A DNA stretch of 64,000 bases from an uncultured Oscillospiraceae bacterium (GCA_947627735.1 CANQXG010000004.1:30881-94880), one strand, 5' to 3'; shown: positions 4,309 through 22,929, numbered from the stretch's first letter. Notes: generated by a model from the sequence alone, not told the origin. Made by a program: numbers and translations.

Positions 4309-4448
4309 TGGCTAAGGACAAGTCCCCTTCCCCCGCGCCCAGAAAGGCGCCCGCTCCCCCCTGGCGCGTGGAGCGCCGCTTCGACGGAAAACGAACAGCG
4401 GACCAGGTGGCGGCGGATCTCATCAAGGTACATACGCCCCAGCCGTGA
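4309..4448 (+). CDS. 45-aa basic microprotein translationally coupled to recombinase
   Basis: MAKDKSPSPAPRKAPAPPWRVERRFDGKRTADQVAADLIKVHTPQP; TTTGGAGG ribosome-binding site; GTGA overlap with recombinase start. Confidence 0.7.
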
Positions 4449-6010
4449 CGAGCGCGAAGGCGAGATACTCCGTCGCCCGCTATGCCCGCCTGTCCCGGGA
4501 GGACGGGGACAAGCCGGAGAGCGACAGCATCGCCAATCAGCTCCGCCTGATCGGGGACTTCTGCGCCCTCCACCCGGAGCTGACCGTCGCCGGCGACTAT
4601 GTGGACGACGGCTACACCGGTACCAGCTTCGACCGGCCCGACTTCCGGCGGATGCTGGCGGACATCGACGCGGGCCGGGTCGACTGTGTGATCGTGAAGG
4701 ACCTGTCCCGCTTCGGCCGGGACTACATCGACATGGGCTATTACCTGGAGCGCTGGCTCCCTGCCCGGGACGTGCGGTTCATCGCCGTCGGCGACGGCGT
4801 GGACAGCCTCCGGGGGCCATACGACATGCTCCTGCCGCTGAAAAACGTCTTTAACACCCAGTATGCCCGGGACATCTCCGCCAAGGTCCGCGGCTCCCTG
4901 GCCGCCAAGCAGCGGCGGGGCCAGTTCGTGGGCGCGTTCGCCGCCTACGGCTATGTGAAGGACCCGGAGGACAAAAACCACCTCATCGTCGATCCTGTGG
5001 CCGCCCGGGTGGTGGAGCGAATATTCACCCTGGCCGCCGCCGGCGTGGGACAGATACGCATCGCCAAGCTGCTCAACGACGAGCGCGTGCCCTGCCCCAG
5101 CGAGTACAAGCGCCTCATGGGCCAGCGGTACACCAATGGCCGCCGGCTGGACGCCACCCGCTACTGGACCTACGCCACCGTCCACCGCATCCTCCGCAGC
5201 CCGGTCTACACCGGCGCGGTGGTGTCCGGCCGCTCGGTCCGGCCCTCCATGCACGCCAAGGCCAAGGCCGCCCCCGCGGCGGACTGGATCGTCGTGGAGG
5301 GCATGCATGAACCCATCGTGTCCCGGGCGTTGTGGGACGCTGCCCAGGCCCAGGTGGGAGCCAATGCCCGGCCCATCGGCTTTACGGGCAGCGTGAGCCT
5401 GTTCGCGGGGCTGCTCCGGTGCGGCGAGTGTGGCCGCGCCCTGTGCAAGACCACCTGGAACGGCCGCGTCACCTATGCCTGCGGGTCCTATCACCGCTAC
5501 GGCCCCGCCGTCTGCTCCCCCCATTACATCGGCGAGGACGCCCTCGCCGCCGTCATCCTGGCGGACTTAAACCGCCTTCTCCGGTCCGTACACGACCTGC
5601 AAAGCCTGGCGGCGCGGCAGAGGGCCGCCTGCTCCGCTCAGCCCTGGGAACGGGAGCTTGCCCATCTGCAGGGAGCGCTGGAGCGCGTCCGGCGGCTGAA
5701 GCAGAGCGCCTATGAGGACTACCGGGACGGGCTGCTCACCCGGGAGGAATTTGCCCGGTATAAGGCGGACTACGACCGGCAGGAGGACGCCCTGGCCCGC
5801 CAGATCGCCGCCGCAGAGCAGGCGCAGCCCGACGCGCCGCCGGACAGCCCCTGGACGGAACAGCTCCTCCGGACCGGCGGGCTGTCCTCCCTGGACCGGG
5901 CCACCCTGGCCCAGACCGTAAAGTCTGTCCGCGTCTTTGCGGACCGGCACCTGGAGATCACCTACCTGTTCTCCGACGAGGTAAGTGACGCGCTGGAAAA
6001 GACGGACTAA
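4445..6010 (+). CDS. large serine recombinase
   Basis: Resolvase N-domain ARYARLSRED...SIANQ...VDDGYTGTSFDRPDF...VKDLSRFGRDY; recombinase domain; zinc ribbon CGECGRALC...C...C; coiled coil. Confidence 0.97.
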   Translation: MTSAKARYSVARYARLSREDGDKPESDSIANQLRLIGDFCALHPELTVAGDYVDDGYTGTSFDRPDFRRMLADIDAGRVDCVIVKDLSRFGRDYIDMGYYLERWLPARDVRFIAVGDGVDSLRGPYDMLLPLKNVFNTQYARDISAKVRGSLAAKQRRGQFVGAFAAYGYVKDPEDKNHLIVDPVAARVVERIFTLAAAGVGQIRIAKLLNDERVPCPSEYKRLMGQRYTNGRRLDATRYWTYATVHRILRSPVYTGAVVSGRSVRPSMHAKAKAAPAADWIVVEGMHEPIVSRALWDAAQAQVGANARPIGFTGSVSLFAGLLRCGECGRALCKTTWNGRVTYACGSYHRYGPAVCSPHYIGEDALAAVILADLNRLLRSVHDLQSLAARQRAACSAQPWERELAHLQGALERVRRLKQSAYEDYRDGLLTREEFARYKADYDRQEDALARQIAAAEQAQPDAPPDSPWTEQLLRTGGLSSLDRATLAQTVKSVRVFADRHLEITYLFSDEVSDALEKTD

Positions 6011-7602
6011 TCCACGATGAGCTTATATGTGACCGGCTCGTAGAGATATTCCCCATTGGCGTCAACGCCGATGAAGCTGATCTCAGAGGCGCCCTCAAAC
6101 ATCGACGCGGGCAGTTTCTCGTCAAACCCCACGTCGTTCAGCGCTTCGTTTTCATATGCTTCGCCCACATCTGCGCGTCTTTGCCCATAGTTGAGCCTCA
6201 CCACCGCGTCGCCCACCTGCAGATACAGCGCCTGGAAGGGGGCGTTGTTCTTAAAGTCCGCCGCCCAGCCGTGCAGCTCGACATACCGCGTGGAGCTGTC
6301 CAGCGCAACTTCCGGGCTGTTACGCACCGTCACGCCGTTGAACCTGTCCAGGCATACGCCCTGTCTGCCGACGCCGGCGCCGTACTCCTCCGCTGTTATC
6401 ATCGCCGTCTGCGGCAGCTCCGGCAGCTCCTCGCCCGTATCGACGATAAACGGTTCTCTTTTCAAAATAAAATCGATCTGCCGTTCCCCCACGCCAAATA
6501 TGACCACATCCGGCTTTACCAGCTCGTCGAACTCCATGTCCACCGCTCTTAGCCCCATGAACATGACCGTTCTAAAGCTTTCCGCAAACATCTGCGGAAG
6601 TTTGTGATACTGCGTCCATTGGGAATCACCATAGATTAAGAGCGTACCGTTTTCGGCGTTGGCGTTTTCAAAAATAGCAAAGCCCAGTCCGCGGGCCTCA
6701 TTATCCGCCTGTTGGAATACCCGGCTCTGCTCATACAGCGGTCCGTCCGTTATCATCGTGCTGCTCACAGGCCATTGTGCTGTCGGTATGATCTCGTTTC
6801 CCAGACTGTGGGAATAGCCCATCATATCGGAAAGATCCCCATTCTCCTTCTGCTCGTCCAAAAAGGTGACTGAAAGATCATCCATTGCTATTCCCAGTTG
6901 CTCCAGCTTCTCCGCCACTGTCTGATATATCACATACGAGCCAAGGTCCGTTGCATGGGTGTCATGCTGATAATACAGCTTCCCCTTATCCTTGTTTGCC
7001 AGCATTGCGGTCTTCGCGTTCACGACCTGCACCGTCGTGTTCTCCTCCAGATACCTCTCCAGCTGGTCGCACACCGTTTCCTGTACGGCATAATCTCCGG
7101 AGGCGATATATTCCGGGTAGATGGACGGTTTTCCGGGGTCCATCACCAAAAGATACGGTATCCCCTGCTGGGCGTACCAGTCGCTGATCCTCTGCTGCCG
7201 CTGGGCGATGTCCTGCAAAAGTTCCTCCGACAGCTTATACTTTCCCGCCCCGATCTCCACATTGTGATCGCCGGTGAAATAATACCACCCATCCCGTCCA
7301 ACCTCCACCCGATCGCTGATGGACTGTGGAAAGAGCTTCAGTCTTATTCCTGCCGCCAGTTTCACAAATACGGAGCGAAAGCCCAGGTTGTCCCCCAGCC
7401 AGCTCTCAAATCCGCTTTTCAGGCCGTCGGACAGGTGACCTTCCCCGTCAAATACATCCGGGAACGTCGCCAGATACCGGTTTTCCGCCTCCGACACGAC
7501 CCCCGGTATGCGGTTTATCGTCAACAGAGGCAGGACCAATACGGCCGCGAAACAGATGACCCCGGCGAGCAGCGCCGCTTTTTTCCCTCTCATGTCCTGC
7601 AC
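6007..7602 (-). CDS. AlgX/DltD-like SGNH-fold membrane-anchored acyl-transfer protein
   Basis: N-terminal TM; IYGDSQWTQY (GDS motif) and HDTHATDLG (D-H pair); adjacent to MBOAT. Confidence 0.8.
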   Translation of the reverse strand: MQDMRGKKAALLAGVICFAAVLVLPLLTINRIPGVVSEAENRYLATFPDVFDGEGHLSDGLKSGFESWLGDNLGFRSVFVKLAAGIRLKLFPQSISDRVEVGRDGWYYFTGDHNVEIGAGKYKLSEELLQDIAQRQQRISDWYAQQGIPYLLVMDPGKPSIYPEYIASGDYAVQETVCDQLERYLEENTTVQVVNAKTAMLANKDKGKLYYQHDTHATDLGSYVIYQTVAEKLEQLGIAMDDLSVTFLDEQKENGDLSDMMGYSHSLGNEIIPTAQWPVSSTMITDGPLYEQSRVFQQADNEARGLGFAIFENANAENGTLLIYGDSQWTQYHKLPQMFAESFRTVMFMGLRAVDMEFDELVKPDVVIFGVGERQIDFILKREPFIVDTGEELPELPQTAMITAEEYGAGVGRQGVCLDRFNGVTVRNSPEVALDSSTRYVELHGWAADFKNNAPFQALYLQVGDAVVRLNYGQRRADVGEAYENEALNDVGFDEKLPASMFEGASEISFIGVDANGEYLYEPVTYKLIVD

Positions 7603-7603
7603 C

Positions 7604-9157
7604 TCAGAAATTGAAATAGATGAACGGATTGTATGTGCTGGTGACGGTGAACGCCACGGCGACGATAAACACCGCCCCGTAGGCCGCGCCGGACAGGATG
7701 CTGCATGCCGCCAGCCGTTTTCCTGTCTGCCCGCTCATTTTTTCCCGCAGCCAGGGGATGACCGGCATGGAGAGCACCGCCGACAGCAGGAACAGGACCG
7801 CGCCCTTGCCCACCAGGAACGTACTGGCCCCATCGGACAGGCTGTTGCCCATCAGCCCGAACAGGCTCCCCAGATACCGGAACGCGCCGCCCATGCTGTC
7901 GCTGCGGAACACCACGTCCGCCAGCAGCGCGAGAAACAGCGTCCGCCCGGTCTGGAATACCCGGAACCACCGCGCCTTTCGGTCGATGCCCAGCTTCTTC
8001 GTCCACTTTTTGAGCAGCGGACCGAAAACGGCGTCCAGGGAAAGGAGAACGCCATAGTAACAGCCAAAGATGATATAGGTCCAGTTCGCGCCGTGCCAGA
8101 TACCGTTGCAGAGCCAGACGACCATAAGGGGCACGACCGTCCGGACGACCTCCTTGCCCCGGCTCCCCCAGCGCTCCTTCGCCCGGGCGCACAGCTTCCG
8201 CAGCCAGCCGGCGCCGGAAACGGGCACGAACAGGTAATCCCGAAACCAGCTGCCCAGGGAGATATGCCAGCGCCGCCAGAACTCGCCCACGGTTTTCGAT
8301 ATATACGGGTAATTGAAATTCTCCTTGAAATGGAACCCGAACATCAGCCCTAGGCCGATGGCCATATCCGAATACCCGCTGAAATCGAAGTAGACCTGCA
8401 ACATATAGCTCGCCGCGCCGAACCACGCCAGCAGCACCGTCAGCTGCGAGTAGTCCGTGTATCCAAAGGCCCGGTCCACGATGACCGCCAGGGTGTTGGC
8501 CAGGATGGCCTTCTTCCCCATCCCGATGATGAACCGTTTGATCCCCTGGGCGAAGTCCTCCAGGGTCTCCTTCCGGCCTGTGATCTCCTCCGCCACCGTT
8601 TCATACCGGACGATGGGTCCCGCGATGAGCTGGGGAAACAGGGCCACGTACAGCATGGTGTTCAGCGGGTTCTTCTGCACCTTGCCCCGGCCATAGTACA
8701 CGTCGAACACGTAGCTCATGGCCTGGAAGGTGAAAAAGGAGATGCCGATGGGCAGGGCGATGTTCCGAAGCGGGATGGGCCTGGCCCCGAACAGGGACGT
8801 CACCGCGTTGATGTTGGTGATGGTGAAGTCCAGGTATTTATACACGAAAAACAGCGACAGGTTGAACACGACCATCAGCACAAGGCAGCTTTTTGCCTTG
8901 TGCTGATAGCTTTTCGCCGTGGAAGCCTTTCCCAGCTCCCTTGCCCGGGTGTTGCACCTGTCTATCTGCCAGGCGAGAACATGGTTGACCAGGATCGAGC
9001 CGATCATCACGAATACGAATGTCGGCTCGCCCCAGGCGTAGAACAGCAGCGACGCCGCCAGCAGGAAATAGTTCTTGAGCTTTGGGTTCAGCAGATAGTA
9101 CCCCGCCAGCGTCACCGGCAGGAACGCAAATAAAAATATCGTAGATGAAAAGACCAT
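7604..9157 (-). CDS. MBOAT family O-acyltransferase (AlgI/DltB-like)
   Basis: MVFSSTIFLFAFLPVTLAGYYLL...PIGISFFTFQAMSYVFDVYYGR...GYSDMAIGLGLMFGFHFKENFNYPY...FWRRWHISLGSWFRDYLFVP...WHGANWTYIIFG. Confidence 0.96.
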   Translation of the reverse strand: MVFSSTIFLFAFLPVTLAGYYLLNPKLKNYFLLAASLLFYAWGEPTFVFVMIGSILVNHVLAWQIDRCNTRARELGKASTAKSYQHKAKSCLVLMVVFNLSLFFVYKYLDFTITNINAVTSLFGARPIPLRNIALPIGISFFTFQAMSYVFDVYYGRGKVQKNPLNTMLYVALFPQLIAGPIVRYETVAEEITGRKETLEDFAQGIKRFIIGMGKKAILANTLAVIVDRAFGYTDYSQLTVLLAWFGAASYMLQVYFDFSGYSDMAIGLGLMFGFHFKENFNYPYISKTVGEFWRRWHISLGSWFRDYLFVPVSGAGWLRKLCARAKERWGSRGKEVVRTVVPLMVVWLCNGIWHGANWTYIIFGCYYGVLLSLDAVFGPLLKKWTKKLGIDRKARWFRVFQTGRTLFLALLADVVFRSDSMGGAFRYLGSLFGLMGNSLSDGASTFLVGKGAVLFLLSAVLSMPVIPWLREKMSGQTGKRLAACSILSGAAYGAVFIVAVAFTVTSTYNPFIYFNF

Positions 9158-9178
9158 GACGACCTCATAACCCCACGG

Positions 9179-9406
9179 TCATTTGACCATTTTCTTTATC
9201 AGCTCGATGATGCAGTCCTTGTTCCCAAAGTTCTCCGCGGTCACATCGCCCGCGTCGATCTCGATGTCAAATTCATCCTCCAGGCGGCTGACCAGCGCTA
9301 TCAGCTCGAACGAGTCGATGATCTCGTCGTCCACCATATTGGGGCCGGTGTAGGTCAGCAGCTCGTCGTTCACCCCGGCCAGGATATCAAGTATTCTCTG
9401 TTCCAT
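9179..9406 (-). CDS. acyl/peptidyl carrier protein
   Basis: 75 aa; phosphopantetheine-site DDEIIDSFELIALVSRLEDEFDIEI. Confidence 0.9.
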   Translation of the reverse strand: MEQRILDILAGVNDELLTYTGPNMVDDEIIDSFELIALVSRLEDEFDIEIDAGDVTAENFGNKDCIIELIKKMVK

Positions 9407-10325
9407 GCTCTGTTTCTCCTTTTGTATCCAGATTGAATTTGATCGCCAATTCATATCCCCCGCCCATGGCGAGGTATAGCCTGTTATTTTCCCTGTCCAG
9501 CACCGTTTGCCGTCCGTCCAGGTGTTCCGCCGGCGCTTTTTTATAGCGCGTCACCTCGGCCTCGTGCCCGTCCGGCAGCCTTATCCGGGCCGGCGGGAAG
9601 ATGTCGCTCCGGCCATAATCCATGGCCCGCAGCATCCGGTAGATGTCCTCCGCCGGATCGGACGCGGAGCAGACGCCGCCGCCCGGCACCTCCCAGGAAT
9701 AGTACATTTTCCGCCCGCCCTCCTCAAGCCGCTGGGGCCGGCCATCGATATGCCGGACGAGAAGCTCCTCATAGAAATCCTCAAACGCCGCCGACGCCTC
9801 TTTCATGATGTCCCGCGTCAGCTCATAGGCCTTGACGTCCGCCGGGATGGGCACCTCCCGCTGGGCGATGATCGCGCCCGTGTCTACAGCGGCCTGCATA
9901 TAGTGCCACGTGGCCCCGGTGACCTTCTCGCCCTCGTAGATCGCCCAGCTCTGGGTGTTCCGCCCCGGGAACTTGGGCAGCAGCGCGCTGTGGAAATTGA
10001 TGATCTCCAGATTGGGCTTTTCAATGATCCGCTTCGGAAAGAGGAACGTATTCCCCGCGCTGATCACCAGCGCCGGCGCGGCGATGGCCTCCAGCGTTTC
10101 GGCCACCGCTTGCTTATCGGTGATCCGCGCGTAGTCCGCGCCGGTCTCCTCGCAGAGCGCGCGCATCTTTGATATGCCGTGGACCTCATACTCGATGCAC
10201 AGCGTTCTATATCCATATTTCCCCTGGCGCTGCGCCGCGGACCGGAGCACGTCGCCCGCCGTCTTTCCCCAGCCGATCACAACGACAAGATCAAATCTGC
10301 TCTTCATGCCCTTTCCTCCTCTCAC
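9387..10325 (-). CDS. formyltransferase (methionyl-tRNA formyltransferase-like fold)
   Basis: INFHSALLPKFPGRNTQSWAIYEGEKVTGATWHYMQAAVDTGAII: N/H/D catalytic signature of 10-formyl-THF transferases. Confidence 0.88.
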   Translation of the reverse strand: MRGGKGMKSRFDLVVVIGWGKTAGDVLRSAAQRQGKYGYRTLCIEYEVHGISKMRALCEETGADYARITDKQAVAETLEAIAAPALVISAGNTFLFPKRIIEKPNLEIINFHSALLPKFPGRNTQSWAIYEGEKVTGATWHYMQAAVDTGAIIAQREVPIPADVKAYELTRDIMKEASAAFEDFYEELLVRHIDGRPQRLEEGGRKMYYSWEVPGGGVCSASDPAEDIYRMLRAMDYGRSDIFPPARIRLPDGHEAEVTRYKKAPAEHLDGRQTVLDRENNRLYLAMGGGYELAIKFNLDTKGETEHGTENT

Positions 10326-11848
10326 CCGATGTACTCCTGCCGCAGGGCAACCCGGTCGATCTTTCCGTTGGCGTTCAGGGGCAGCTTGTCCACGCAGATC
10401 ACCTTCCCCGGCAGCATGTAGTCCGGGAGCAGGTCCCGCAGACGCCGGTTGATCTCGCTGCGGCTCATCTCCTGCTCCAAAAACAGCACGATCTTGCTGC
10501 GCTTGTCGTCATACAGGCAGCAACACATGGATATCTCCTCCAGGGACGACACCGCCGTCTCGATCTCTCCCAACTCGATCCGATGGCCCAGATGCTTGAT
10601 TTGGAAGTCCTTCCGGGACAGGTAGATAATCTCATGACGCTCGTTGTACTTCACCAAGTCGCCGGTGCGGTAGATCTTCTCCTCATAGGCCGTCTGCAGC
10701 GGATTCTGCACGAAGGCCGCCGCTGTCTTTTCCGGGTTGTTGTAATACCCCACCGCCAGGGACGACCCCCGCACGCACAGCTCGCCCACCTGCTCCGGCT
10801 CCGTCACCAGCCTGTCCTGCTCGTCCAGCACCAGGATCTCCGTATTGCGCATGGGCTTACCGATAGGCAGCGGTTCGTCGTCGTTAAATTCCCGGTCTAC
10901 AATGTAATACGTACAGGCATATGTGATCTCGGTCGGACCGTAGAAATTGGTATACTGTACATTCGGCAGATACTTCCTCCACACGTTCAAGTGTTTTGTC
11001 GGCATAACTTCACCGCAGAGAAGGACCCTCTTCAAGGTATCAGACAGATCAACCTTTGGCAGCGCTTTTAGTGCAGAAACCATTATCATGGCCGACGGTA
11101 CCCAGCTAATGGAGGTGATCCGCTTGTCCTGCAAATACTGCAACAGTTTTACAGGCTGCGAAAACAGCACCTCCGGGATCACATAGAGGGCCGCCCCGGT
11201 TTTGACAGCCAGAAAAACACCGGGAACAGAATTATCAAAATAAAACGGTGATTGATTTCCGAAAGAGTCGTTTTCCGTGATGGAGTATTCTTCCGCCTCC
11301 CAGTCGATGAGATCAATAATGCTCCGGTGGGTGATGGCCACGCCCTTGGGCGTACCGGTGGAGCCGGAGGTGAACAGCACGTACAGAAGGTCCGTGTCCA
11401 GGATGCGGTCCGCATATTCCCGGGCCTTTTCATCGCTCACGTCGTCCCTGGTGATATCCTCAAAGCATAAGACCTTGCCGTTATAGTCCACGCTCTTCCC
11501 TGCTCCGATCCTCTCGCTCAGCGCACGTGTCGTGATGAACAGAGCTGAATGGAGTGTTTCCACGATTTTTTTTGCTCTGACCGCCGGCATATCTATGGCG
11601 ATGGGGCTGTAAAAATTGCCGCTGTAGGCCACGCCCATATAAACCGCCAGCATATCGGCAGAGGTTTCCATATATATGCCGATCGGCTGTTTCCGGTCGG
11701 GCATCGCCGCCTCGATATGGGCGGCGATGGACAGCGCCGTCCGCCGCAGCTCCGCCCAGGTATAGCGCCGGTTTTCATCCGCGTATGCCGTTCTCTCCGG
11801 GAATTTTCGGGCCGTCTGCTCCAGCCACTGTACTACGCTGTTTTGCAT
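10322..11848 (-). CDS. amino-acid adenylation enzyme (standalone A domain, DltA-like)
   Basis: FTSGSTGTPKGVAITH (A3), FYFDNSVPG (A4, Asp kept), NFYGPTE (A5), YRTGDLVKY (A7), LPLNANGKIDR (A10 Lys). Confidence 0.93.
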   Translation of the reverse strand: MQNSVVQWLEQTARKFPERTAYADENRRYTWAELRRTALSIAAHIEAAMPDRKQPIGIYMETSADMLAVYMGVAYSGNFYSPIAIDMPAVRAKKIVETLHSALFITTRALSERIGAGKSVDYNGKVLCFEDITRDDVSDEKAREYADRILDTDLLYVLFTSGSTGTPKGVAITHRSIIDLIDWEAEEYSITENDSFGNQSPFYFDNSVPGVFLAVKTGAALYVIPEVLFSQPVKLLQYLQDKRITSISWVPSAMIMVSALKALPKVDLSDTLKRVLLCGEVMPTKHLNVWRKYLPNVQYTNFYGPTEITYACTYYIVDREFNDDEPLPIGKPMRNTEILVLDEQDRLVTEPEQVGELCVRGSSLAVGYYNNPEKTAAAFVQNPLQTAYEEKIYRTGDLVKYNERHEIIYLSRKDFQIKHLGHRIELGEIETAVSSLEEISMCCCLYDDKRSKIVLFLEQEMSRSEINRRLRDLLPDYMLPGKVICVDKLPLNANGKIDRVALRQEYIG

Positions 11849-11933: not shown

Positions 11934-12719
11934 TTACGGCGCCAGATTCTCCCTGGCCTGGTCTAGGGTGATGGTCTTGTCCAGATACTGCTGATAGAGG
12001 TCGCACAAAATGGCCGTGTCACCGCAGGCGATCTGCTCCCCATGCTCCAGCCACAGCACCTTCGTGCACAGCTCCTCTACCTGGCTCAGAGAGTGGGACA
12101 CCAGGATCGTGGCCGCGCCGCCGGCTATGATCTCCTTCATCTTCGCCTCGCTCTTTTTCTTGAACGCCCCGTCGCCTACGGAGAGCACCTCGTCCAATAT
12201 AAGGATGTCCGGCTGTACCATGCTGGCGATGGCGAAAGCCAGACGGCTCTTCATGCCCGAGGACAGCTGCTTGAAGGGCCGGTCCTGGAATCTTTCCAAT
12301 TCCGCGAAGGCGATGATCTCGTCATATGTTTCATCCATGAACTTCCGGGTATACCCCAGCATGGCCCCCCGGAGATAGGCGTTTTCACGTACCGTCAGAT
12401 CCCCGTCGAAGCCGCTGGCCAGCTCCAGCAGCGCCGCCACGTTCCCCTGGCGCGTCACCCAGCCCTCCGTTGGCTCCATAATGCCCGCCACCGCCTTCAG
12501 GAGCGTGGACTTGCCCGCACCGTTGGAGCCGATGATGCCCAGCATCTCCCCCTTTTCCAGGGTGAAGCTCACGTGCCTGTCCGCCCAGAACTCGCTCACA
12601 TGATAATTGCGGGTCAGCTTCCGCATCACATATTCCTTGAGGCCGATCTCCTTGAAATCCCCGGTCAAATACCGGATGGAAACGTTGTTAACCTCCAAGA
12701 TACTCATAGCCGGCCTCAC
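11934..12719 (-). CDS. polysaccharide ABC exporter ATPase (Wzt/TagH-type, no C-terminal glycan-binding domain)
   Basis: GIIGSNGAGKSTLLKAVAGIMEPTEG...LSSGMKSRLAFA...ILDEVLSVGD; 261 aa. Confidence 0.92.
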   Translation of the reverse strand: MRPAMSILEVNNVSIRYLTGDFKEIGLKEYVMRKLTRNYHVSEFWADRHVSFTLEKGEMLGIIGSNGAGKSTLLKAVAGIMEPTEGWVTRQGNVAALLELASGFDGDLTVRENAYLRGAMLGYTRKFMDETYDEIIAFAELERFQDRPFKQLSSGMKSRLAFAIASMVQPDILILDEVLSVGDGAFKKKSEAKMKEIIAGGAATILVSHSLSQVEELCTKVLWLEHGEQIACGDTAILCDLYQQYLDKTITLDQARENLAP

Positions 12720-13504
12720 ACATAGTACAGGAATTTCGTGTTGTATTTCTTATACATGAAACAGCCCAGTCCCAGCGCGATTACCACGTCTGCCGCCATG
12801 AGCAGGTGGAACCAGATCGTCGGTATGGTCGCCTCGATGACGATCTTCCGGAAATAGCGGATGAACAGATACACCGGGTTGAGCAGGAACAGCTTCCTCG
12901 TCGTTTCGCTGTAGGTGTCGATGGTGTAGAAGATAGCGGATAGGTACATCAGCAGCATGGTGAACACGTCATATAAATACTGGATGTCCCGGAAGAACAC
13001 GAACAGTGCCGACAGGATCATGCCGATGCCGATGTTGAACAGGATAAGACACCCTACGGGGTAGGCCAGGCACAGGAATTTCCACGTGAACGGCAGGCCG
13101 TCGAAGGCCACAAAGACGAAGAACACCACCAATATAAGCCCGAAGTTGATGAGCGCCTGGACGTTCCGGCTCAAGAGGAATAGATACTTGGGCACGTTCA
13201 CCTTGGTGAAGATGCCGGCGTTGCCCATGATGGTGCTCATGCCGCCCTTGGTGGCGTCGGAGAAGAAGGAGAACACCAAGGTCCCGCAAAAGATGTAGAT
13301 CATGTAATGGGGCGTGGTCCGGCCAAAGAACTTGGTGAACACCAGCGTCATGACCGCCAGCTGCAGCAGGGGCGACAGGATGCTCCAGGCCATGCCCAGC
13401 ACGGTCCGCTTATATTTCTTTTTGAAGTCCCGCTTCACCAGTTCCTCAAACAGGAACTGGTAGTGTAATGCTCTTGCGAATACAGAATTTACTTTGTTTT
13501 CCAT
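12716..13504 (-). CDS. polysaccharide ABC exporter permease (Wzm/TagG-type)
   Basis: ABC-2 topology; LVKRDFKKKYKRTVLGMAWSILSPLLQLAVMTLVF; ATGA overlap with ATPase. Confidence 0.92.
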   Translation of the reverse strand: MENKVNSVFARALHYQFLFEELVKRDFKKKYKRTVLGMAWSILSPLLQLAVMTLVFTKFFGRTTPHYMIYIFCGTLVFSFFSDATKGGMSTIMGNAGIFTKVNVPKYLFLLSRNVQALINFGLILVVFFVFVAFDGLPFTWKFLCLAYPVGCLILFNIGIGMILSALFVFFRDIQYLYDVFTMLLMYLSAIFYTIDTYSETTRKLFLLNPVYLFIRYFRKIVIEATIPTIWFHLLMAADVVIALGLGCFMYKKYNTKFLYYV

Positions 13505-13523: not shown

Positions 13524-14711
13524 TTATTGCCCCGTCTTTTCCGCCAGCAAGTCCTTCACCGCGTCCAGCAGGGTGTAGCTGTCCGTCACCAGCACGCCCC
13601 GGCAGTCTGCCCGTGTCGCCGCCTCGATGTCCCGCTCGTCGTCCCCGAACAGCACGCAGTCCTTCGGTATATTCAGGTCATACTCCCGCTGGGCCTCATA
13701 CAGCATCCCCGGCTGGGGCTTGCGGCAGAAGCAGCCGTCGTCCCAGTTGTGGGGGCACATGTAGATCCTGTCTATCCGCGCCCCGGCCCGGCGCAGGTCC
13801 GCCTCCATCTTCTCATGGATGGCCGCCAGGGTATCCTCCGTCAGCCGGCCCCGGGCCAGCCCCGGCTGGTTCGTCACCAGCAGCACCAGGTACCCCGCCT
13901 CGTTGAGCAGCCGCACCGCCTCCTTAGCCCCCGGCAGCCACACGAAGTCCTCCGGCCGCTCGATGTAGCACGCCCGGGGCGGCCGCTCGTTCAGCGTCCC
14001 GTCCCGGTCCAGGAACACCGCCTTCCGCCCGGAGAAAAACCGCTCCGTCAGCGGCATCCGGGCATAGGACCCGATGGAATAGTACCGGTGCTCCGTCACG
14101 GTGGCGTAAAGCCGTCCCTGCTCCAGTGCACGGGCGTAGGCGAAGCGCTCGAAGCTGATGTTCTCCTCCGGCAGCCAGTCCAGCACCTCCCTGGCGATCA
14201 GCGCGTAGCCGATGTCCACCCCGTTGAGGCCCGGCGTCTGTCGGGCCTTGTCGTATACCTTCACCTTCTCGTTTTCGATGAGCAGGTTGTTTTTCGTATA
14301 CCCGTCCCGGTTGGCATAGGCCGTCATCTGCACCAGGGCGTGATTTTCCCGGAACGCCGCCAGGTGCTTTGCGAAGCTGATGGGGCAGTAGTTGTCGCAG
14401 TACATCAGCAGGAAGTCGCCGTGGATAAGTCCTGCCGCCGCACGCAGCCGCGCGCCGGTCTCATACTCCACCGGCGTGACGCTGTACTGGACTGTGAGTC
14501 CCTCGATGGGTTCCGTCGCCAGATAGTCGATGATCTTCTCCGCCTTGTAGCCCAGCAGCAGCACCGCCTCCGATATGCCGAAGTCACGCACCTGCTCCAG
14601 CAAGTGCGCCATATAGGGCCGGCCCTGTATGGGATACATGGGCTTCGGGTTTTCCAGGGTGAACGGCTGCAGCCGCGTCCCCTGGCCCCCCGCCAATATC
14701 ACTGCCTGCAT
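13524..14711 (-). CDS. bifunctional heptose-1-P guanylyltransferase (HddC-like) and heptose-bisphosphate phosphatase (GmhB-like)
   Basis: N-terminal MQAVILAGGQGTRLQPFT nucleotidyltransferase; C-terminal HAD-IIIA VFLDRDGTLNERP...VTNQPGLARG...CPHNWDDGCFCRKPQPGML Zn loop. Confidence 0.88.
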   Translation of the reverse strand: MQAVILAGGQGTRLQPFTLENPKPMYPIQGRPYMAHLLEQVRDFGISEAVLLLGYKAEKIIDYLATEPIEGLTVQYSVTPVEYETGARLRAAAGLIHGDFLLMYCDNYCPISFAKHLAAFRENHALVQMTAYANRDGYTKNNLLIENEKVKVYDKARQTPGLNGVDIGYALIAREVLDWLPEENISFERFAYARALEQGRLYATVTEHRYYSIGSYARMPLTERFFSGRKAVFLDRDGTLNERPPRACYIERPEDFVWLPGAKEAVRLLNEAGYLVLLVTNQPGLARGRLTEDTLAAIHEKMEADLRRAGARIDRIYMCPHNWDDGCFCRKPQPGMLYEAQREYDLNIPKDCVLFGDDERDIEAATRADCRGVLVTDSYTLLDAVKDLLAEKTGQ

Positions 14712-14723
14712 GGTCTATCCCTC

Positions 14724-15308
14724 TCACCTATCCTTCAGCATCTCACAGAACAGGCGCATCATCATGTGGTTGAAGATGAGATGCACGTCCTCCGTCACCT
14801 GCATATCTTCTATGGGCGCGTGCATGCTGTGGTCCGCCAGTCGGCGCAGCTTCCCGCCGTCATAGCCGGTGACGCCGATCACCGCGCAGCCCTGGGCCTT
14901 GGCATACTCCACCGCACGGATGATGTTGGCCGAGTTGCCGCTGCCGGAGATGGCCACCACCACGTCCCCCGCCCGCAGCCGGCCTTCCAGCTGGGCGGCG
15001 AACACGTTCTCATACCCCAGGTCGTTGGAGATCGCCGTCACCATCGCGATGTTGTCGTTCAGGCAGTGGAAGCGGAACTTCTTTCCCAGCCCCTCGCTGA
15101 TCCCCTTGTTGAAGTCGTTCAGCATGTGGGTGGCCGTGGATGCGCTGCCCCCGTTTCCGAAACAATACACATCCGCGCCTCGATCGTAGGCGTCCAGCAG
15201 CACGTTCATCGCCCTGCTGACCGCCGTAGTGTCCACCGCGTCCAATGTGCTCTTCACGTCGGCAAAATAATCCGTTATCAGTTTTTTGAAGTCTATGTAT
15301 CTGTCCAT
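14724..15308 (-). CDS. gmhA: SIS-domain sedoheptulose-7-phosphate isomerase
   Basis: FGNGGSASTATHMLNDFNKG...VVVAISGSGNSANIIRAVEYAKAQG. Confidence 0.88.
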   Translation of the reverse strand: MDRYIDFKKLITDYFADVKSTLDAVDTTAVSRAMNVLLDAYDRGADVYCFGNGGSASTATHMLNDFNKGISEGLGKKFRFHCLNDNIAMVTAISNDLGYENVFAAQLEGRLRAGDVVVAISGSGNSANIIRAVEYAKAQGCAVIGVTGYDGGKLRRLADHSMHAPIEDMQVTEDVHLIFNHMMMRLFCEMLKDR

Positions 15309-15321
15309 GTCCCTGGCTCTC

Positions 15322-16308
15322 TCAGTCGTAAAAGATGATCTGGGACCCGGCAGGCTCGAACCGGAAGTCGATCTGCCGGTAACCGCTCAGCGCCTGCCGC
15401 ACCGCCTCCTGCCGCTCCGCCGGGACGTACAGCAGCAGAAATCCGCCGCCGCCCGCGCCCAGGATCTTCCCGCCGGTAGCCCCGGCTGCCCGCGCCGCGG
15501 CATACATCCCGTCTATGGCAGGGTTGGACACCCCGGAGGCATACTGCCGCTTCTTCTGCCACGCCGCGTCCAGCGCGGGACCCCAGCTGTCCGGGTCACC
15601 TTCCCGCAGCGAACGGTATACCCGCTCTGCGTCCTCCACCATGGAGTCCAGCAGTGCCATCTTCACCTCGATGGTGTCCGTCTGCTCCCGCATGATCTTG
15701 GACGAGTCCCGGGTCAGGCCCGTGTAAAACAGCATCAGCGAAGTCTTTAACCGCTCCATGGCCGGCGCCGGCACCATGATAGGCTCCGCGCTCACTGCCC
15801 CGTCCGCATAGAACTTATACCGCCGGAAGCCGCCGTAGGCCACCGCGTACTGGTCCTGGATGCCGATGGGGTTGCCCAGCCGTTCTATCTCCAGCTCACA
15901 GGCCATCCGCGCCAGCCGCTCCGGCGGGGCATACTCCCCCTTGAAGGCCAGCAGCGCGTTCAGCGTCCCCACTGCGATGGCGCTGGAGGACGCCAGGCCC
16001 ACCCCCGCCGTGGCCAGCGGCAGGTCCGCCGAGTAGATGATCTCCACGCCCTTCTCGATGCCCGTCATCTTCAGCGCCTCGCGGATGATGTTGTGCTTCA
16101 CCTCATCCACCTGGTCCACGACCTCGTTCTGGGAATAGCAGACCCGGATCTGGTCGTCGAACTTCTTCAGCACCGTGATATACACGTACATATCCAGCGC
16201 CGTGCTCAATACTGTGCCGTAGCCAAAGCGGCTGTGCTCAAAATAGCCGTGAAAATCCGTTCCCCCTCCGAAAAACGACGCGCGGAGGGGCGTCTTTGAA
16301 ATAACCAA
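15322..16308 (-). CDS. hddA: GHMP kinase, D-glycero-D-manno-heptose 7-phosphate kinase
   Basis: MVISKTPLRASFFGGGTDF...ADLPLATAGVGLASSSAIAVGTLNAL...GAGGGGFLLLYVP; within gmhA/hddC cluster. Confidence 0.88.
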   Translation of the reverse strand: MVISKTPLRASFFGGGTDFHGYFEHSRFGYGTVLSTALDMYVYITVLKKFDDQIRVCYSQNEVVDQVDEVKHNIIREALKMTGIEKGVEIIYSADLPLATAGVGLASSSAIAVGTLNALLAFKGEYAPPERLARMACELEIERLGNPIGIQDQYAVAYGGFRRYKFYADGAVSAEPIMVPAPAMERLKTSLMLFYTGLTRDSSKIMREQTDTIEVKMALLDSMVEDAERVYRSLREGDPDSWGPALDAAWQKKRQYASGVSNPAIDGMYAAARAAGATGGKILGAGGGGFLLLYVPAERQEAVRQALSGYRQIDFRFEPAGSQIIFYD

Positions 16309-16331
16309 CGTCTATCTCTCCCGTTTCTTTG

Positions 16332-17303
16332 TCAGACTCTCTCCCGCCAGTAGTTCAGCGTGTCGGACAGGATCTGCTCGAACCCGATCTCCGGCCGCCA
16401 GCCCGTGATCTGCCGGAACTTCTCCGTGTCCCCGATGAGGTAGGGCACCTTCGTCGGCCGCACGAACGCAGGCTCCGTCACCCACTTGATGTCCTTCACC
16501 GTGGACATGGCGATGAGCCGCTCCAGCGTCTCCTGGAAGGTATAGACCTTGTCCTCCTCGTCCGACCCCACCAGATACAGCTCACCCGGCTCGCACTTGT
16601 GCACCGCCAGCCAATAGGCCCGCACGATGTCCTTCACGTGGGTGAAGTTGCGCTTGTCACCCGTGTCGCCGATGCGCACCACCGGCTCCTGCAGCCCCTT
16701 CTCGATGCGGGCGATCTGATAAGCGTAGGACGGCAGGCCGAACACGTTCTCACGCCGAGGCCCCTCGTGGTTGAAGGTCCGGGTCCGGTACACCTGCACG
16801 CCGTAGGACCGGAAGTAAACGTACCCGATCAGATCCTGGGCCACCTTCGTCACCGCGTAGGGGTTCACAGGCCGCAGCACGGTGAACTCGTTGATGGGCA
16901 GCTCGTCCGGGTGGATGTCGCCGTACTCCTCCCCGGAGCCGGGGATGTGGAACTTGGTGTCCGGCTTGATGTCCCGGATGGCGTCCAGGAAGTTCACGGT
17001 GCCCAGGTAGTTGGTGTCCATATACTCCCGGGGGTTGTCCCAGGAGGGGCTGACGAAGCTCTCGGAGGCCATGTGGAAGATGATGTCCGGCTGGACCTCC
17101 TTCACCACCCGGCGCACGCCGGTGGCGTCCAGGATGTTGCAGTCGTGCCAGATGATCTTGTCCGCGAAGCCCGCCACGTGGTCCATCCGGGACAGGTGCC
17201 AGCGCTTCGTGCCGTGCACCTCCACGTCCGGCATGGTCAGCAGATACTCCGCCAGGTGGGAACCCACGAATCCGGTAACGCCTGTGATCAGTACTTTTTC
17301 CAT
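16332..17303 (-). CDS. GDP-mannose 4,6-dehydratase-family SDR (probable GDP-heptose 4,6-dehydratase)
   Basis: ITGVTGFVGSHLAEYLL...GSGEEYG...NPYAVTKVAQD; follows GDP-heptose genes. Confidence 0.82.
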   Translation of the reverse strand: MEKVLITGVTGFVGSHLAEYLLTMPDVEVHGTKRWHLSRMDHVAGFADKIIWHDCNILDATGVRRVVKEVQPDIIFHMASESFVSPSWDNPREYMDTNYLGTVNFLDAIRDIKPDTKFHIPGSGEEYGDIHPDELPINEFTVLRPVNPYAVTKVAQDLIGYVYFRSYGVQVYRTRTFNHEGPRRENVFGLPSYAYQIARIEKGLQEPVVRIGDTGDKRNFTHVKDIVRAYWLAVHKCEPGELYLVGSDEEDKVYTFQETLERLIAMSTVKDIKWVTEPAFVRPTKVPYLIGDTEKFRQITGWRPEIGFEQILSDTLNYWRERV

Positions 17304-17321
17304 TGTTCTTCTCCTAACTTT

Positions 17322-17900
17322 TTAGTGCTGTCCGCGCATGCCCTTCACGCGCTCAACGTATTGTTTGAAGCTCTGGTGGTGCTTATCCCGCTGGGAGATG
17401 ATGACGTTCTCCACTTTGTCCAGGGGCCAGTCGATGGCCAGGTCCGGGTCGTCCCACTGCACGCCGTCCTCATACGCAGGGCTGTACTTGTCCGTGCACT
17501 TGTATGTAAACACCGTGTGATCCCGCAGGGCCAGGAAGGCAGAGCCGAAGCCCTCCGGCAGGTACAGCATCCGCTTGTTCTCCTCGCTCAGCTCAAAGGC
17601 CTGCCACTTGCCCAGGGTGGGCGAGTCGATGCGCAGGTCCACCGCCACCTCGTATACCGCGCCGCTGCTGACCCGCACCAGCTTCCCCTGGGGGTACTCG
17701 TACTGGAAGTGGATGCCCCGCAGCGTGCCCTTGCAGGACAGGCTCTCGTTGTCCTCTCCGAAGGTAACGGGCAGGCCACGCTTCAGAAACTCCTGCTTCT
17801 CAAAGGACTTGAGAAAATACCCCCGCTCGTCCGGGAAATACCGGGGCATGATCTCCATGAGCCCCTCGATGGACGTCTTTTTGAATTCAAAATCCGGCAT
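17322..17900 (-). CDS. RmlC-fold 3,5-epimerase (probable GDP-6-deoxy-4-keto-heptose epimerase)
   Basis: DERGYFLKSF...KGTLRGIHFQYEYPQGKLVRV...FTYKCTDKYSPAYEDGV. Confidence 0.8.
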   Translation of the reverse strand: MPDFEFKKTSIEGLMEIMPRYFPDERGYFLKSFEKQEFLKRGLPVTFGEDNESLSCKGTLRGIHFQYEYPQGKLVRVSSGAVYEVAVDLRIDSPTLGKWQAFELSEENKRMLYLPEGFGSAFLALRDHTVFTYKCTDKYSPAYEDGVQWDDPDLAIDWPLDKVENVIISQRDKHHQSFKQYVERVKGMRGQH

Positions 17901-17932
17901 GTCTGTTTCTCCTTATAATTTATTATTGTTAT

Positions 17933-18811
17933 TTAACGGTCCGTTTGGACGCTGTCGATGTAATCCCGGATCGAACGGGCAAGTTCGATCTGCGGCTCCC
18001 AGCCCGTCGCCTGCCGGATCTTCGTGATATCCGCGCAGAAGCTGATCCTGTCCTCATGATGCTGAAAGCAAGGCTCCTCTTCCAGGCCAAAGGCGCGCAT
18101 GGCCTCTCCGGCGACCGACCAGATGGGCGTCGCGCGGCCTGACCCGATGTTCAAGATCTGCTGCTCCGGATCGCATTCCGCGACGCGGAGGATCGCTTTT
18201 GACAGATCCCGCACATCGATGAAATCGTTCTCGTTGTACGCGGTGCGAAGGGCCGGCTTTTGTCCGTTTTTCAAGCACTTCACCACGTAGGGGATCACAG
18301 AATTAGCCCTCTGATTTGGCCCAATCACATAAAAGGGCCTCACCCAATGGAAGTCCAGCTGTCTTTCGAGGCAATACTGCCTTGCCATCCCCAGCAGCCC
18401 CGTCTTTGCCGCTGTAAAAGCATCCGTGTTCCTTATCGGCCACTCCTCCGGGATCGCTCCCTTGGGATCGAGATACTCAAAGCAGCTTCCCGTGAAGATA
18501 AAGTGTTTGATCCCCGCCCTGTAACCCTCCTCCAGGAGGTTGAAACTGTTTCGCACGCTGTTCCAGCTGTTTTCATAGGAATAGTCCGGTATCCCTATCC
18601 AGGCCAGATGGATGCAGCAATCGATCTGCTTTGCCTGCAACACGCTGTTCAGGTGGGCGGGGTCCCCAAGGTCGCACTGCAGATACTCGTCACATTTTGA
18701 TGCCGGCTCTCTCCTGCTGCCCAGCGCGTAAACAAAATGTCCGGCCCGCGCTGCGTCGGCGCACACATTTTTCCCGATAAAGCCGTTTGCGCCCGTTATC
18801 AGTAGCCTCAT
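17933..18811 (-). CDS. NAD(P)-dependent SDR epimerase/reductase
   Basis: ITGANGFIGKNVC Rossmann motif; FTAAK in place of YxxxK. Confidence 0.78.
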   Translation of the reverse strand: MRLLITGANGFIGKNVCADAARAGHFVYALGSRREPASKCDEYLQCDLGDPAHLNSVLQAKQIDCCIHLAWIGIPDYSYENSWNSVRNSFNLLEEGYRAGIKHFIFTGSCFEYLDPKGAIPEEWPIRNTDAFTAAKTGLLGMARQYCLERQLDFHWVRPFYVIGPNQRANSVIPYVVKCLKNGQKPALRTAYNENDFIDVRDLSKAILRVAECDPEQQILNIGSGRATPIWSVAGEAMRAFGLEEEPCFQHHEDRISFCADITKIRQATGWEPQIELARSIRDYIDSVQTDR

Positions 18812-20883: not shown

Positions 20884-22929
20884 TCACATCCTCACGATCT
20901 TCCGCACGAACCGTCCTATGGGCCGCGGCGCCCGCTCGCTCGCCCACAGGAACAGCGCCCCCCTTACGCCCACATCGTTTGAAACCGTGGCGTCCGCGGG
21001 GACCTTCAGCACCCGCCTCAGGCCGCGGGAAAGCCCTTGGGGCAGCTTCTTGTCCGCATACAGCAGCAGCGAATGGCGCAGCTGGTATTTCTGATACGAC
21101 ATACACGGGCCGCTCACAGGACCGGGGCGCGAGCGCCTGAACTCGGCCACCGCGCCTCGAAGTGACCGGATCAGCGCCGCGTGGGTGCTGAACTGCACCC
21201 GGGGCATCCCCCGCAGGGCGTCCAAGGTGTCCCAGTGCATCGTCCTGAAATTGGTCAGCTCGCTGGCGGCATACTGTGGGTTGAGCACATACTCCGAGTA
21301 ATAGCCGTTGTACTGGGCCACGTACGGAAGCAATCTCTCCAAGGCATGGCCCAGTGTTCCATCCCCCGCCGCCGGCTCTCTGGGGAAATCCTGGTAGGTC
21401 CATTCATGCATAAAGAGCGTTTTCAGCGCGTCCGTCCGCGCCCAAAAAAACGTGCCAGTAGAAAAAGCCCCCTTTTTCTTATCCATCGGGACCGTCATCC
21501 CCAGCGAATAGGCTACTTCGACCGATTTCTCGTAACAAAGCGTCCAGGTGTTCAGCCAGCCCAAAAAATACGACCCGTGGTAGACGACGGGCGGCACCTG
21601 CATCCCCAGGCATGGGTGCTCCTCGAACCGGTTGAGGATGTTGCTCACGTACCCCGGGCTGAAGAGCGTGTTCTCCCACAGCAGGTCCCGGAAGGACGGA
21701 CCGACGGCCGTATTCTCCTTCTGGGAAGATTTCTTGTCGTGGACAAAGCAGACATACTCATACTGCATGAGGTAGTCATGGCACCCCACCAGCAACGCGC
21801 TGATATCCCTGCCTCTCTGCTCCACCTTGACGAAGATCAGGCGGTTTTTCAGGGCTTTACCGAATTTTTCGCGGAGCGTTTCGATCTGTCCGTCGTCCCG
21901 GTTCGTGAGGATGATATCCACCTCCGGCGGCAGATTCCGCAGGAATCGCAGATCATAGTCGAACAGCTCGGGATAGCTGGTGTGGAGGACCAGAGCGATC
22001 TTCTTCCCCTGATAGAGCTTCTTTCCCCCGTAAACATCCACGTCCGGCACGATGGCCGTCAGGTTGAGGCTTTGGTGGATGTCGTTCAGGTCATACTTGC
22101 GCAGGAGGTATTTGTAGATCAGGGATGTGTCATAGTCCGTCTCCCGCTCCACATACTCCATGGTCTTCTTCAGGTCGTTGCCGTAGTTATACCGCAGCGT
22201 CTCGGACTTGGGCGTGATAAAAGCCTTGCGCTTCAGGACCGGGAACCGGCGGTTCGCCACCATCTCATAGATGTTGAAGGTATGGTTGGAGATATTCTTC
22301 GTTATGTCCTCAGACTCCAGATCCGCCGTGTCGGAATAGACCCCCAGCCGGAAACCGGCGTCCTCGAACCTCTTCGTAAAGGCGGGGCCGAAGTTTGCCG
22401 CTGCCTCGGAAACGTTCTTATACTCCTGCAGGGTGCTCCAGAACTCCTGGAACACCTGTGAGACCATGAGTCTTTTCCTGAACGCCACAAAATAGGTCTG
22501 AAGATACCTGTACCGGTGGTCGTAGGGCGATGACACATTGGGTATGTTCGGTACGGCGCCGTGGGCCGAAAGGCCCCAGAAATCCACCTCCGTGCGGCTG
22601 TCCATCTCGTCAAAGACCTCTTTGAACGGATAGAGCGGACCGAAAAAGGAGTCGTTGAAAAGCACCAGCTCGTCATACTTTTCCAGCTCATTCAACCCCA
22701 GCAGGAACAGCCCGCTCTTAAAGCCGCTTATGTCAAAGCCCACGTCCGGCCGCACCGAGATCTCCTGGGAATATTTTGAAAGTACCCGGCGGCCCTCCTC
22801 CGACAGGCACCCGTTGCAGACGATGATAAGCCTGTCCAGGTTCTGGCTCATATCGTCCAGGAGATACTCGACATACTTGTCCACATATCCCTCGTCGTCA
22901 AAAAAGGCAAATATCCCTGCTCTTCTCAT
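20884..22929 (-). CDS. rhamnan synthesis protein F (RgpF) family glycosyltransferase
   Basis: IFAFFDDEGYVDKYVEYLLDDMSQNLDRLIIVCNG...DVGFDISGFKSGLFLLGL...VLFNDSFFGPLYP. Confidence 0.9.
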   Translation of the reverse strand: MRRAGIFAFFDDEGYVDKYVEYLLDDMSQNLDRLIIVCNGCLSEEGRRVLSKYSQEISVRPDVGFDISGFKSGLFLLGLNELEKYDELVLFNDSFFGPLYPFKEVFDEMDSRTEVDFWGLSAHGAVPNIPNVSSPYDHRYRYLQTYFVAFRKRLMVSQVFQEFWSTLQEYKNVSEAAANFGPAFTKRFEDAGFRLGVYSDTADLESEDITKNISNHTFNIYEMVANRRFPVLKRKAFITPKSETLRYNYGNDLKKTMEYVERETDYDTSLIYKYLLRKYDLNDIHQSLNLTAIVPDVDVYGGKKLYQGKKIALVLHTSYPELFDYDLRFLRNLPPEVDIILTNRDDGQIETLREKFGKALKNRLIFVKVEQRGRDISALLVGCHDYLMQYEYVCFVHDKKSSQKENTAVGPSFRDLLWENTLFSPGYVSNILNRFEEHPCLGMQVPPVVYHGSYFLGWLNTWTLCYEKSVEVAYSLGMTVPMDKKKGAFSTGTFFWARTDALKTLFMHEWTYQDFPREPAAGDGTLGHALERLLPYVAQYNGYYSEYVLNPQYAASELTNFRTMHWDTLDALRGMPRVQFSTHAALIRSLRGAVAEFRRSRPGPVSGPCMSYQKYQLRHSLLLYADKKLPQGLSRGLRRVLKVPADATVSNDVGVRGALFLWASERAPRPIGRFVRKIVRM

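Follow-up and report, generated by a model that had tools for sequence, protein, structure and literature searches.

A candidate Dlt-like operon with an added formyltransferase in an uncultured Oscillospiraceae bacterium

We identified five adjacent genes that probably encode a Dlt-like machine for making aminoacyl esters, with an added formylation step, that acts on an exported glycan. They lie in the window, by which we mean the whole stretch of 64,000 nucleotides analyzed, part of a 2.36 Mb draft genome (G000, contig C4:30881-94880). The five open reading frames, all on the minus strand at 6007-11848, were found where the original prediction had placed them. They encode an adenylation enzyme (A), a formyltransferase (F), a carrier protein (CP), an MBOAT acyltransferase and an AlgX-type SGNH protein. 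Our reading draws on the gene set, the operon geometry, the catalytic residues, co-conservation and a carrier-type loop in the MBOAT, each of which is apparent in the sequence.

In the proposed route, A would activate an amino acid as its adenylate and load it onto the phosphopantetheine of CP, and F would use 10-formyl-tetrahydrofolate to formylate the amino group of the CP-bound aminoacyl. CP would dock at the long loop on the cytoplasmic side of the MBOAT, and the MBOAT would pass the N-formyl-aminoacyl group through its tunnel to the C-terminal Tyr (FIYFNF). The Ser of the AlgX-type SGNH protein would accept the group from this Tyr, and the SGNH protein would then esterify hydroxyl groups on the glycan that the neighboring ABC transporter exports. 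The identity of the amino acid, the formylation on CP, the order of transfer and the acceptor glycan are what we infer. The original prediction had proposed activation, N-formylation on the carrier and transfer to a glycan; the sequence evidence largely supports this series, with the acceptor and the on-carrier formylation as its conjectural parts.

Gene organization and protein families

The features of the five-gene island and the adjoining glycan genes are:

6007..7602, minus strand: AlgX/AlgJ-type SGNH protein with an N-terminal hydrophobic segment, D214-x-H216 and S327 (PF16822; AlgJ 4o8v)
7604..9157, minus strand: MBOAT acyltransferase, 517 aa, catalytic His355, C-terminal FIYFNF (PF03062, DltB structures, backbone tree)
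7616..7618, minus strand: MBOAT Tyr514, in the FxYxxF motif and predicted to carry the acyl group covalently (function of the motif in PatA, PMC12148441)
8141..8212, minus strand: long carrier-type loop of the MBOAT, residues 316-339, replacing the AlgI-type GG[SN]R loop (loop comparison)
9179..9406, minus strand: CP, carrier protein, 75 aa, phosphopantetheine Ser32 in DSFEL (DltC/ACP models, weak match)
9387..10307, minus strand: F, Formyl_trans_N formyltransferase (alternative start GTG 10325)
10322..11848, minus strand: A, standalone amino-acid adenylation enzyme, 508 aa (TIGR01733; code DNPSLCFYAK; tree)
11934..12719, minus strand: ABC exporter ATPase, Wzt type (PF00005)
12716..13504, minus strand: ABC exporter permease, Wzm type (PF01061)
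13524..18811, minus strand: deoxyheptose nucleotide-sugar genes (family resemblance; most equivalog cut-offs missed)
20884..22929, minus strand: RgpF-type rhamnan/glycan synthesis protein (PF05045, 514 bits)

Spacings were computed from start sites that agree with those of the orthologues. They were +14 nt between A and F (-4 nt with the F start at GTG 10325), -20 nt between F and CP, +21 nt between CP and the MBOAT, and +1 nt between the MBOAT and AlgX genes. The tight packing proposed for the five genes is thus borne out, with gaps of 1 to 21 nt and one 20-nt overlap (and a 4-nt overlap with the GTG start). Because A starts 85 nt past the exporter ATPase gene, on the same strand, the five genes are the 3'-most part of a long glycan cluster that lies on one strand. 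The deoxyheptose genes of this cluster encode an HddC-GmhB fusion, GmhA, an HddA-like kinase, a GDP-sugar 4,6-dehydratase close to the GDP-heptose 4,6-dehydratase 7us5, an RmlC-type epimerase and a reductase.

The GC content was 0.59 in the island and 0.644 in the downstream region. A serine recombinase gene with Resolvase, Recombinase and zinc-ribbon domains (4445-6010, plus strand) converges with the AlgX gene, their 3' ends overlapping by 4 nt. The recombinase and the lower GC of the island hint at acquisition or site-specific rearrangement of the glycan island. Elsewhere in the window there is an unusual fusion (28822-30777, minus strand), an OppC-type ABC permease in which RCC1 repeats separate the OppC_N domain at the N-terminus from the permease domain (PF13540, PF00528).

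Using Pfam and NCBIfam models, we found that A scored 349 bits against the amino-acid adenylation model TIGR01733 (cut-off 317) and was above the cut-off for AMP-binding. The DltA equivalog was not reached (297.6 bits; cut-off 559.85). The substrate-amine Asp and the A10 Lys that had been noticed at the outset are indeed present (D205 and K496). The code of A, DNPSLCFYAK, has D, L, C, A and K in common with that of DltA (DLMTLCTVAK), the rest of the pocket being different, and DltA fell outside the A family on a long branch in the tree. The code also differs at four positions from that of a 77% identical orthologue in another genome of the genus, G793 (DNLFLCLDAK). Because the code changes at this level of identity, we rejected reading the amino acid off it, and counted this uncertain specificity against the proposed route. 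An A paralogue, 45% identical, is flanked on another contig (G000:C9, L079) by a CvpA-like gene and a UDP-GlcNAc 2-epimerase-like gene, and no F, CP or MBOAT was detected around it. Relatives of this paralogue, at similar identity, are present in most genomes of the genus.

The other four proteins also have the catalytic residues expected of them. F matched Formyl_trans_N and has an intact triad, N110/H112/D148 (numbered from the GTG). CP matched the DltC/ACP models weakly (28.7 bits versus 68) but has the DSFEL motif. The MBOAT matched PF03062 above its cut-off (73 bits) and the DltB structures 6bug and 8jem (E 3e-25), and did not reach the DltB equivalog (165.8 bits; cut-off 375). It has the catalytic His355 and, in FIYFNF, the FxYxxF motif with Tyr514. 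The SGNH protein matched PF16822 (ALGX) above its cut-off (53 bits) and AlgJ 4o8v (E 1.6e-5). Its D214-x-H216 motif and S327 are as expected for AlgX, whose SGNH fold is circularly permuted with a DxH motif and a Ser (PMC9487903). DltD (PF04914) was not found as the SGNH partner in the island, for which Pfam gave ALGX only. These matches and residues agree with the formyltransferase, DSFEL carrier, MBOAT and SGNH/AlgX protein named in the original prediction.

The formyltransferase and its neighbors

In the LgrA F-A-PCP initiation module of linear gramicidin synthetase, a formyltransferase works with an A enzyme and a carrier. The likeness first drawn between this module and the island stands as a functional analogy, but by sequence F is nearer to sugar N-formyltransferases than to the LgrA F domain, to which its similarity is weak, and LgrA was not among the top 50 fold matches of F. 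The nearest solved relatives of F are nucleotide-sugar and tRNA formyltransferases. The closest by sequence was WbkC, the GDP-perosamine formyltransferase (E 1.7e-17), with a TMt of 0.83 in the fold search; hydrolase domains of 10-formyl-THF dehydrogenase also occurred among the fold matches. F reached none of the sugar formyltransferase models (bits/cut-off: ArnA, 62.9/777; NF005755, 32.5/238; NF005414, 92.5/316). Assignment of F as a methionyl-tRNA formyltransferase was rejected (TIGR00460, 61 bits versus a cut-off of 201.5), and F falls in a clade apart from Fmt with full support. N110, H112 and D148 were invariant in 12 members of the F family, as was a family-specific T-W-H motif.

The resemblance to WbkC raises the possibility that F is a nucleotide amino-sugar N-formyltransferase working apart from A, CP, the MBOAT and the AlgX protein, which would attach an amino acid without formylation. 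In favor of this alternative, GDP sugars are made by the island, and two strong, bona fide sugar aminotransferases (PF01041/DegT) are encoded elsewhere in the genome. We nevertheless consider it unlikely. There was no PF01041 match on the window's contig, the sugar-formyltransferase equivalog cut-offs were missed, and F lies between A and CP, the position of a BtrK-like decarboxylase in other operons (see below). The constant neighbors of the F clade, described next, are A and CP. The earlier argument from the lack of an aminotransferase holds for the contig; the two genes elsewhere count against it.

F-clade homologues are rare. Above the Fmt background there was one further genome among 297 of the order, one among 398 of the phylum, and one among the 34 other genomes of the genus. 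A scan of genome contigs with the single F protein found no relatives. A profile built from three F sequences and scanned over 85,462 species gave 17 loci, chosen by F similarity alone. Thirteen of these distant loci also carried CP and an A of the same family (within 10 kb); of the remainder, one was cut by a contig end and three were more distant Anaerobiospirillum loci. DegT was detected at 3 of the 17. Because A-family genes were found in only 61 of 396 genomes of the order (and in 14 of 399 of the phylum) yet stood beside F at 13 of 17 loci, the gene set recurs far beyond chance (binomial P for A-F linkage about 3e-34, a rough value that ignores relatedness).

Conserved neighborhoods had been suggested as a check on the original prediction, and A, F and CP did recur together, in three cases with an MBOAT and an SGNH-like protein as well. 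Two of these are Lachnospiraceae loci (L056 and L061). The third, in G793, contains A (77%), a GNAT, F (60%), a hexapeptide acyltransferase-like gene, CP, an SGNH-like protein and an MBOAT. Its CP is similar to that of the window, the MBOAT and SGNH-like protein are from other lineages, and the gene order is different. Another genome of the genus, G820, has A (67%), a GNAT, an MBOAT, CP and an SGNH-like protein, with no F.

The relatives of F mostly adjoin KASIII and Antibiotic_NAT or GNAT acyltransferases; KASIII was present at ten of the F loci, and an Antibiotic_NAT or GNAT gene at several. At these loci, modification or transfer of the product may take place in the cytoplasm, and we counted this against the proposed route. 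Clusters of A, F, CP and KASIII, many also with SDR and Antibiotic_NAT genes (L055, L057-L059, L062, L063 and L070), occur in Lachnospiraceae, Selenomonas, Desulfonema and Helicobacter, and look like candidate pathways for unusual acyl groups on sugars. At one locus (L181, G375) the F homologue beside A is broken into two short open reading frames, with CP and KASIII intact, possibly a decayed formyltransferase.

The MBOAT loop and the variable operon slot

We compared MBOATs over the segment between the conserved RWHxSL and WHG motifs. GG[SN]R was present in this segment in none of 55 carrier-linked MBOATs and in 36 of 40 carrier-less ones, and the segment was about 60 aa long in the carrier-linked and typically 43 aa in the carrier-less proteins. 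Three carrier-less MBOATs also have a long loop and are exceptions to this rule, and the P value computed for the contrast takes no account of relatedness. The window MBOAT has the long segment and lacks GG[SN]R. Judging from an alignment with DltB, the DltC-contacting residues of L. plantarum DltB (Met298, Val301, Phe302, Met305 and Arg313; PMC9338922) would fall in this segment. Two related MBOATs, L049 (G000:C21) and L252, have a long carrier-type loop with no carrier protein nearby, and so depart from the loop rule. A second glycan cluster of the genome (G000:C5, L050) contains Wzm/Wzt, an SGNH-like protein, a long-loop MBOAT and an AMP-forming ligase.

With the loop removed, the backbone of the window MBOAT nests inside the carrier-less AlgI-type clade (support 96-100, the SH-aLRT value being 96; nearest L213, 50%). 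Just before the loop, identity was 70-75% to AlgI-type MBOATs and 37% to the G793 MBOAT; just after it, identity was 71% to the G793 MBOAT and 41-53% to AlgI-type MBOATs. We read the window MBOAT as an AlgI-type protein that may have gained a carrier-docking loop by recombination or convergence. An AlphaFold model of the MBOAT from three sequences was poor (pLDDT 52) and was left out of the analysis.

The grouping of this backbone with carrier-less MBOATs, and the Antibiotic_NAT, GNAT or KASIII genes often found beside F relatives, would also fit an arrangement in which the N-formyl-aminoacyl group built by A, F and CP is handed to an acyltransferase in the cytoplasm, while the MBOAT-AlgX pair carries out ordinary O-acetylation and adjoins them by chance. 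AlgX/DHHW-type MBOAT pairs without carriers do occur in the same genome. It seems quite unlikely that this is the case here, given that no cytoplasmic acyltransferase was recognised in the island, that the window MBOAT has a carrier-type loop in place of GG[SN]R, and that the genes are spaced by 1 to 21 nt. In addition, G793 joins the same A, F and CP to a different MBOAT-SGNH pair.

Operons of this general type recur across the order. Of 60 A neighborhoods, 49 had an MBOAT and 42 had A, CP, an MBOAT and an SGNH-like protein together. Because Pfam assigned no firm family to the SGNH-like partners of the related operons (the profile gave weak GDSL matches), these were named from their GDS and D..H motifs. 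The window operon has the parts that define the class: an A of the Dlt-like family, CP, an MBOAT, an SGNH protein and an optional gene between A and CP. Across the order, this slot is empty or holds a type III PLP decarboxylase or a GNAT of 254-279 aa; in the window it holds F. The A codes differ with the slot: DVKxxSxCNK with the decarboxylase, mostly DLKxxGxVDK with the GNAT, and mostly DAKCAGLGMK or SMTYLALDIK with none. The decarboxylase and GNAT groups each form a single supported clade in the tree, and thus represent few independent events.

The best solved matches of the slot decarboxylase include BtrK, an L-glutamyl-carrier decarboxylase, and it is this resemblance above all that suggests that the slot enzyme tailors a carrier-bound aminoacyl group. 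A conserved A-decarboxylase-CP-MBOAT-SGNH operon in which the A code has Lys at the third position (L128, L130, L135, L137, L145 and others) may serve to decorate a surface glycan with an acidic amino acid in decarboxylated form, for example GABA or beta-alanine. In several A-CP-MBOAT operons (L124, L127, L142, L146, L157, L159 and L182), the substrate-binding Asp of A is replaced by Ser (code SMxYLALDIK), which suggests a substrate without an alpha-amino group.

The acyl group transferred in the window might itself be unformylated or otherwise changed, either with F inactive, a hydrolase or acting before loading, or with A activating a non-amino acid. The A enzymes without the substrate Asp in related operons, the split F beside intact CP and KASIII at L181, and the 10-formyl-THF dehydrogenase hydrolase domains among the fold matches of F are all consistent with such an outcome. 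We regard it as very improbable: the window A retains Asp205, and F has all of N110, H112 and D148, which are invariant across its family.

Comparison with known systems

Returning to the formylating Dlt-like route, we put forward, more tentatively, a combined proposal that is plausible but about as easily wrong as right. Bacteria would place N-formyl-amino-acid esters on exported glycans; the operons would form a class with an exchangeable tailoring enzyme in the A/CP slot (formyltransferase, BtrK-like decarboxylase or N-acyltransferase) that acts before membrane transfer; and an acetyl-type MBOAT would have been rewired to a carrier donor by gain of the docking loop. If so, Dlt logic would be a modular platform for placing chemically tailored amino acids, beyond D-alanine, on bacterial surface glycans. 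D-alanylation adds a positive charge; N-formylation would abolish it, and so would have a different role. The loop type would provide a sequence rule for carrier versus CoA as the acyl source of bacterial MBOATs, which annotation usually leaves open.

The closest overall parallel is with Dlt (DltABCD and DltX). The window system shares the logic of A, CP, MBOAT and SGNH, the carrier Ser, a DltB-homologous MBOAT with a carrier-type DltC-docking segment, and the predicted thioester-Tyr-Ser relay. It differs in that the A family is separated from DltA by a long branch, the SGNH protein is of the AlgX type, the Tyr motif is within the MBOAT itself, and a formyltransferase is added; no DltX was seen in the window system. 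Every Dlt equivalog score was under its cut-off, so canonical Dlt (DltA, DltB, DltC) was rejected, and the Dlt match of the original prediction is sound in logic but not at the level of individual proteins. In contrast to LgrA, in which the domains are fused in one synthetase, F, A and CP of the window are three separate open reading frames, with no peptide assembly. That F may act on a carrier-bound aminoacyl group, as in such a module, has indirect support from the linkage of A, F and CP and from the place of F in the slot.

The sugar N-formyltransferases WbkC, ArnA and FdtF share the fold and catalytic triad of F and are its best solved matches, but the island has no aminotransferase and the F clade travels with A and CP. 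AlmEFG of Vibrio cholerae, which glycinylates lipid A, also uses a Dlt-like adenylating enzyme and a carrier to bring an amino acid to a glycoconjugate (PMC4790380). It has the AlmG acyltransferase in place of an MBOAT-SGNH pair, no formylation, and lipid A as acceptor. In BtrJ-BtrI-BtrK of the butirosin pathway, as proposed here, an enzyme tailors an aminoacyl group on a carrier; there the step is decarboxylation for an antibiotic, rather than formylation for a cell-surface glycan. The AlgI/AlgX and PatA/PatB pairs share the MBOAT backbone, the FxYxxF Tyr motif and the AlgX-type SGNH partner. In PatA, which takes acetyl-CoA, the Tyr of this motif is acylated, and the Tyr and SGNH Ser acyl steps are established for both PatA/PatB and Dlt (PMC12148441). 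The difference lies in the loop, mostly GG[SN]R in the carrier-less proteins and carrier-type in the window MBOAT. No paper described the combination in the literature searched, which covered few subscription journals. The parts are known from Dlt, AlmEFG, LgrA, BtrK and PatA/PatB; their combination and the loop change appear to be new.
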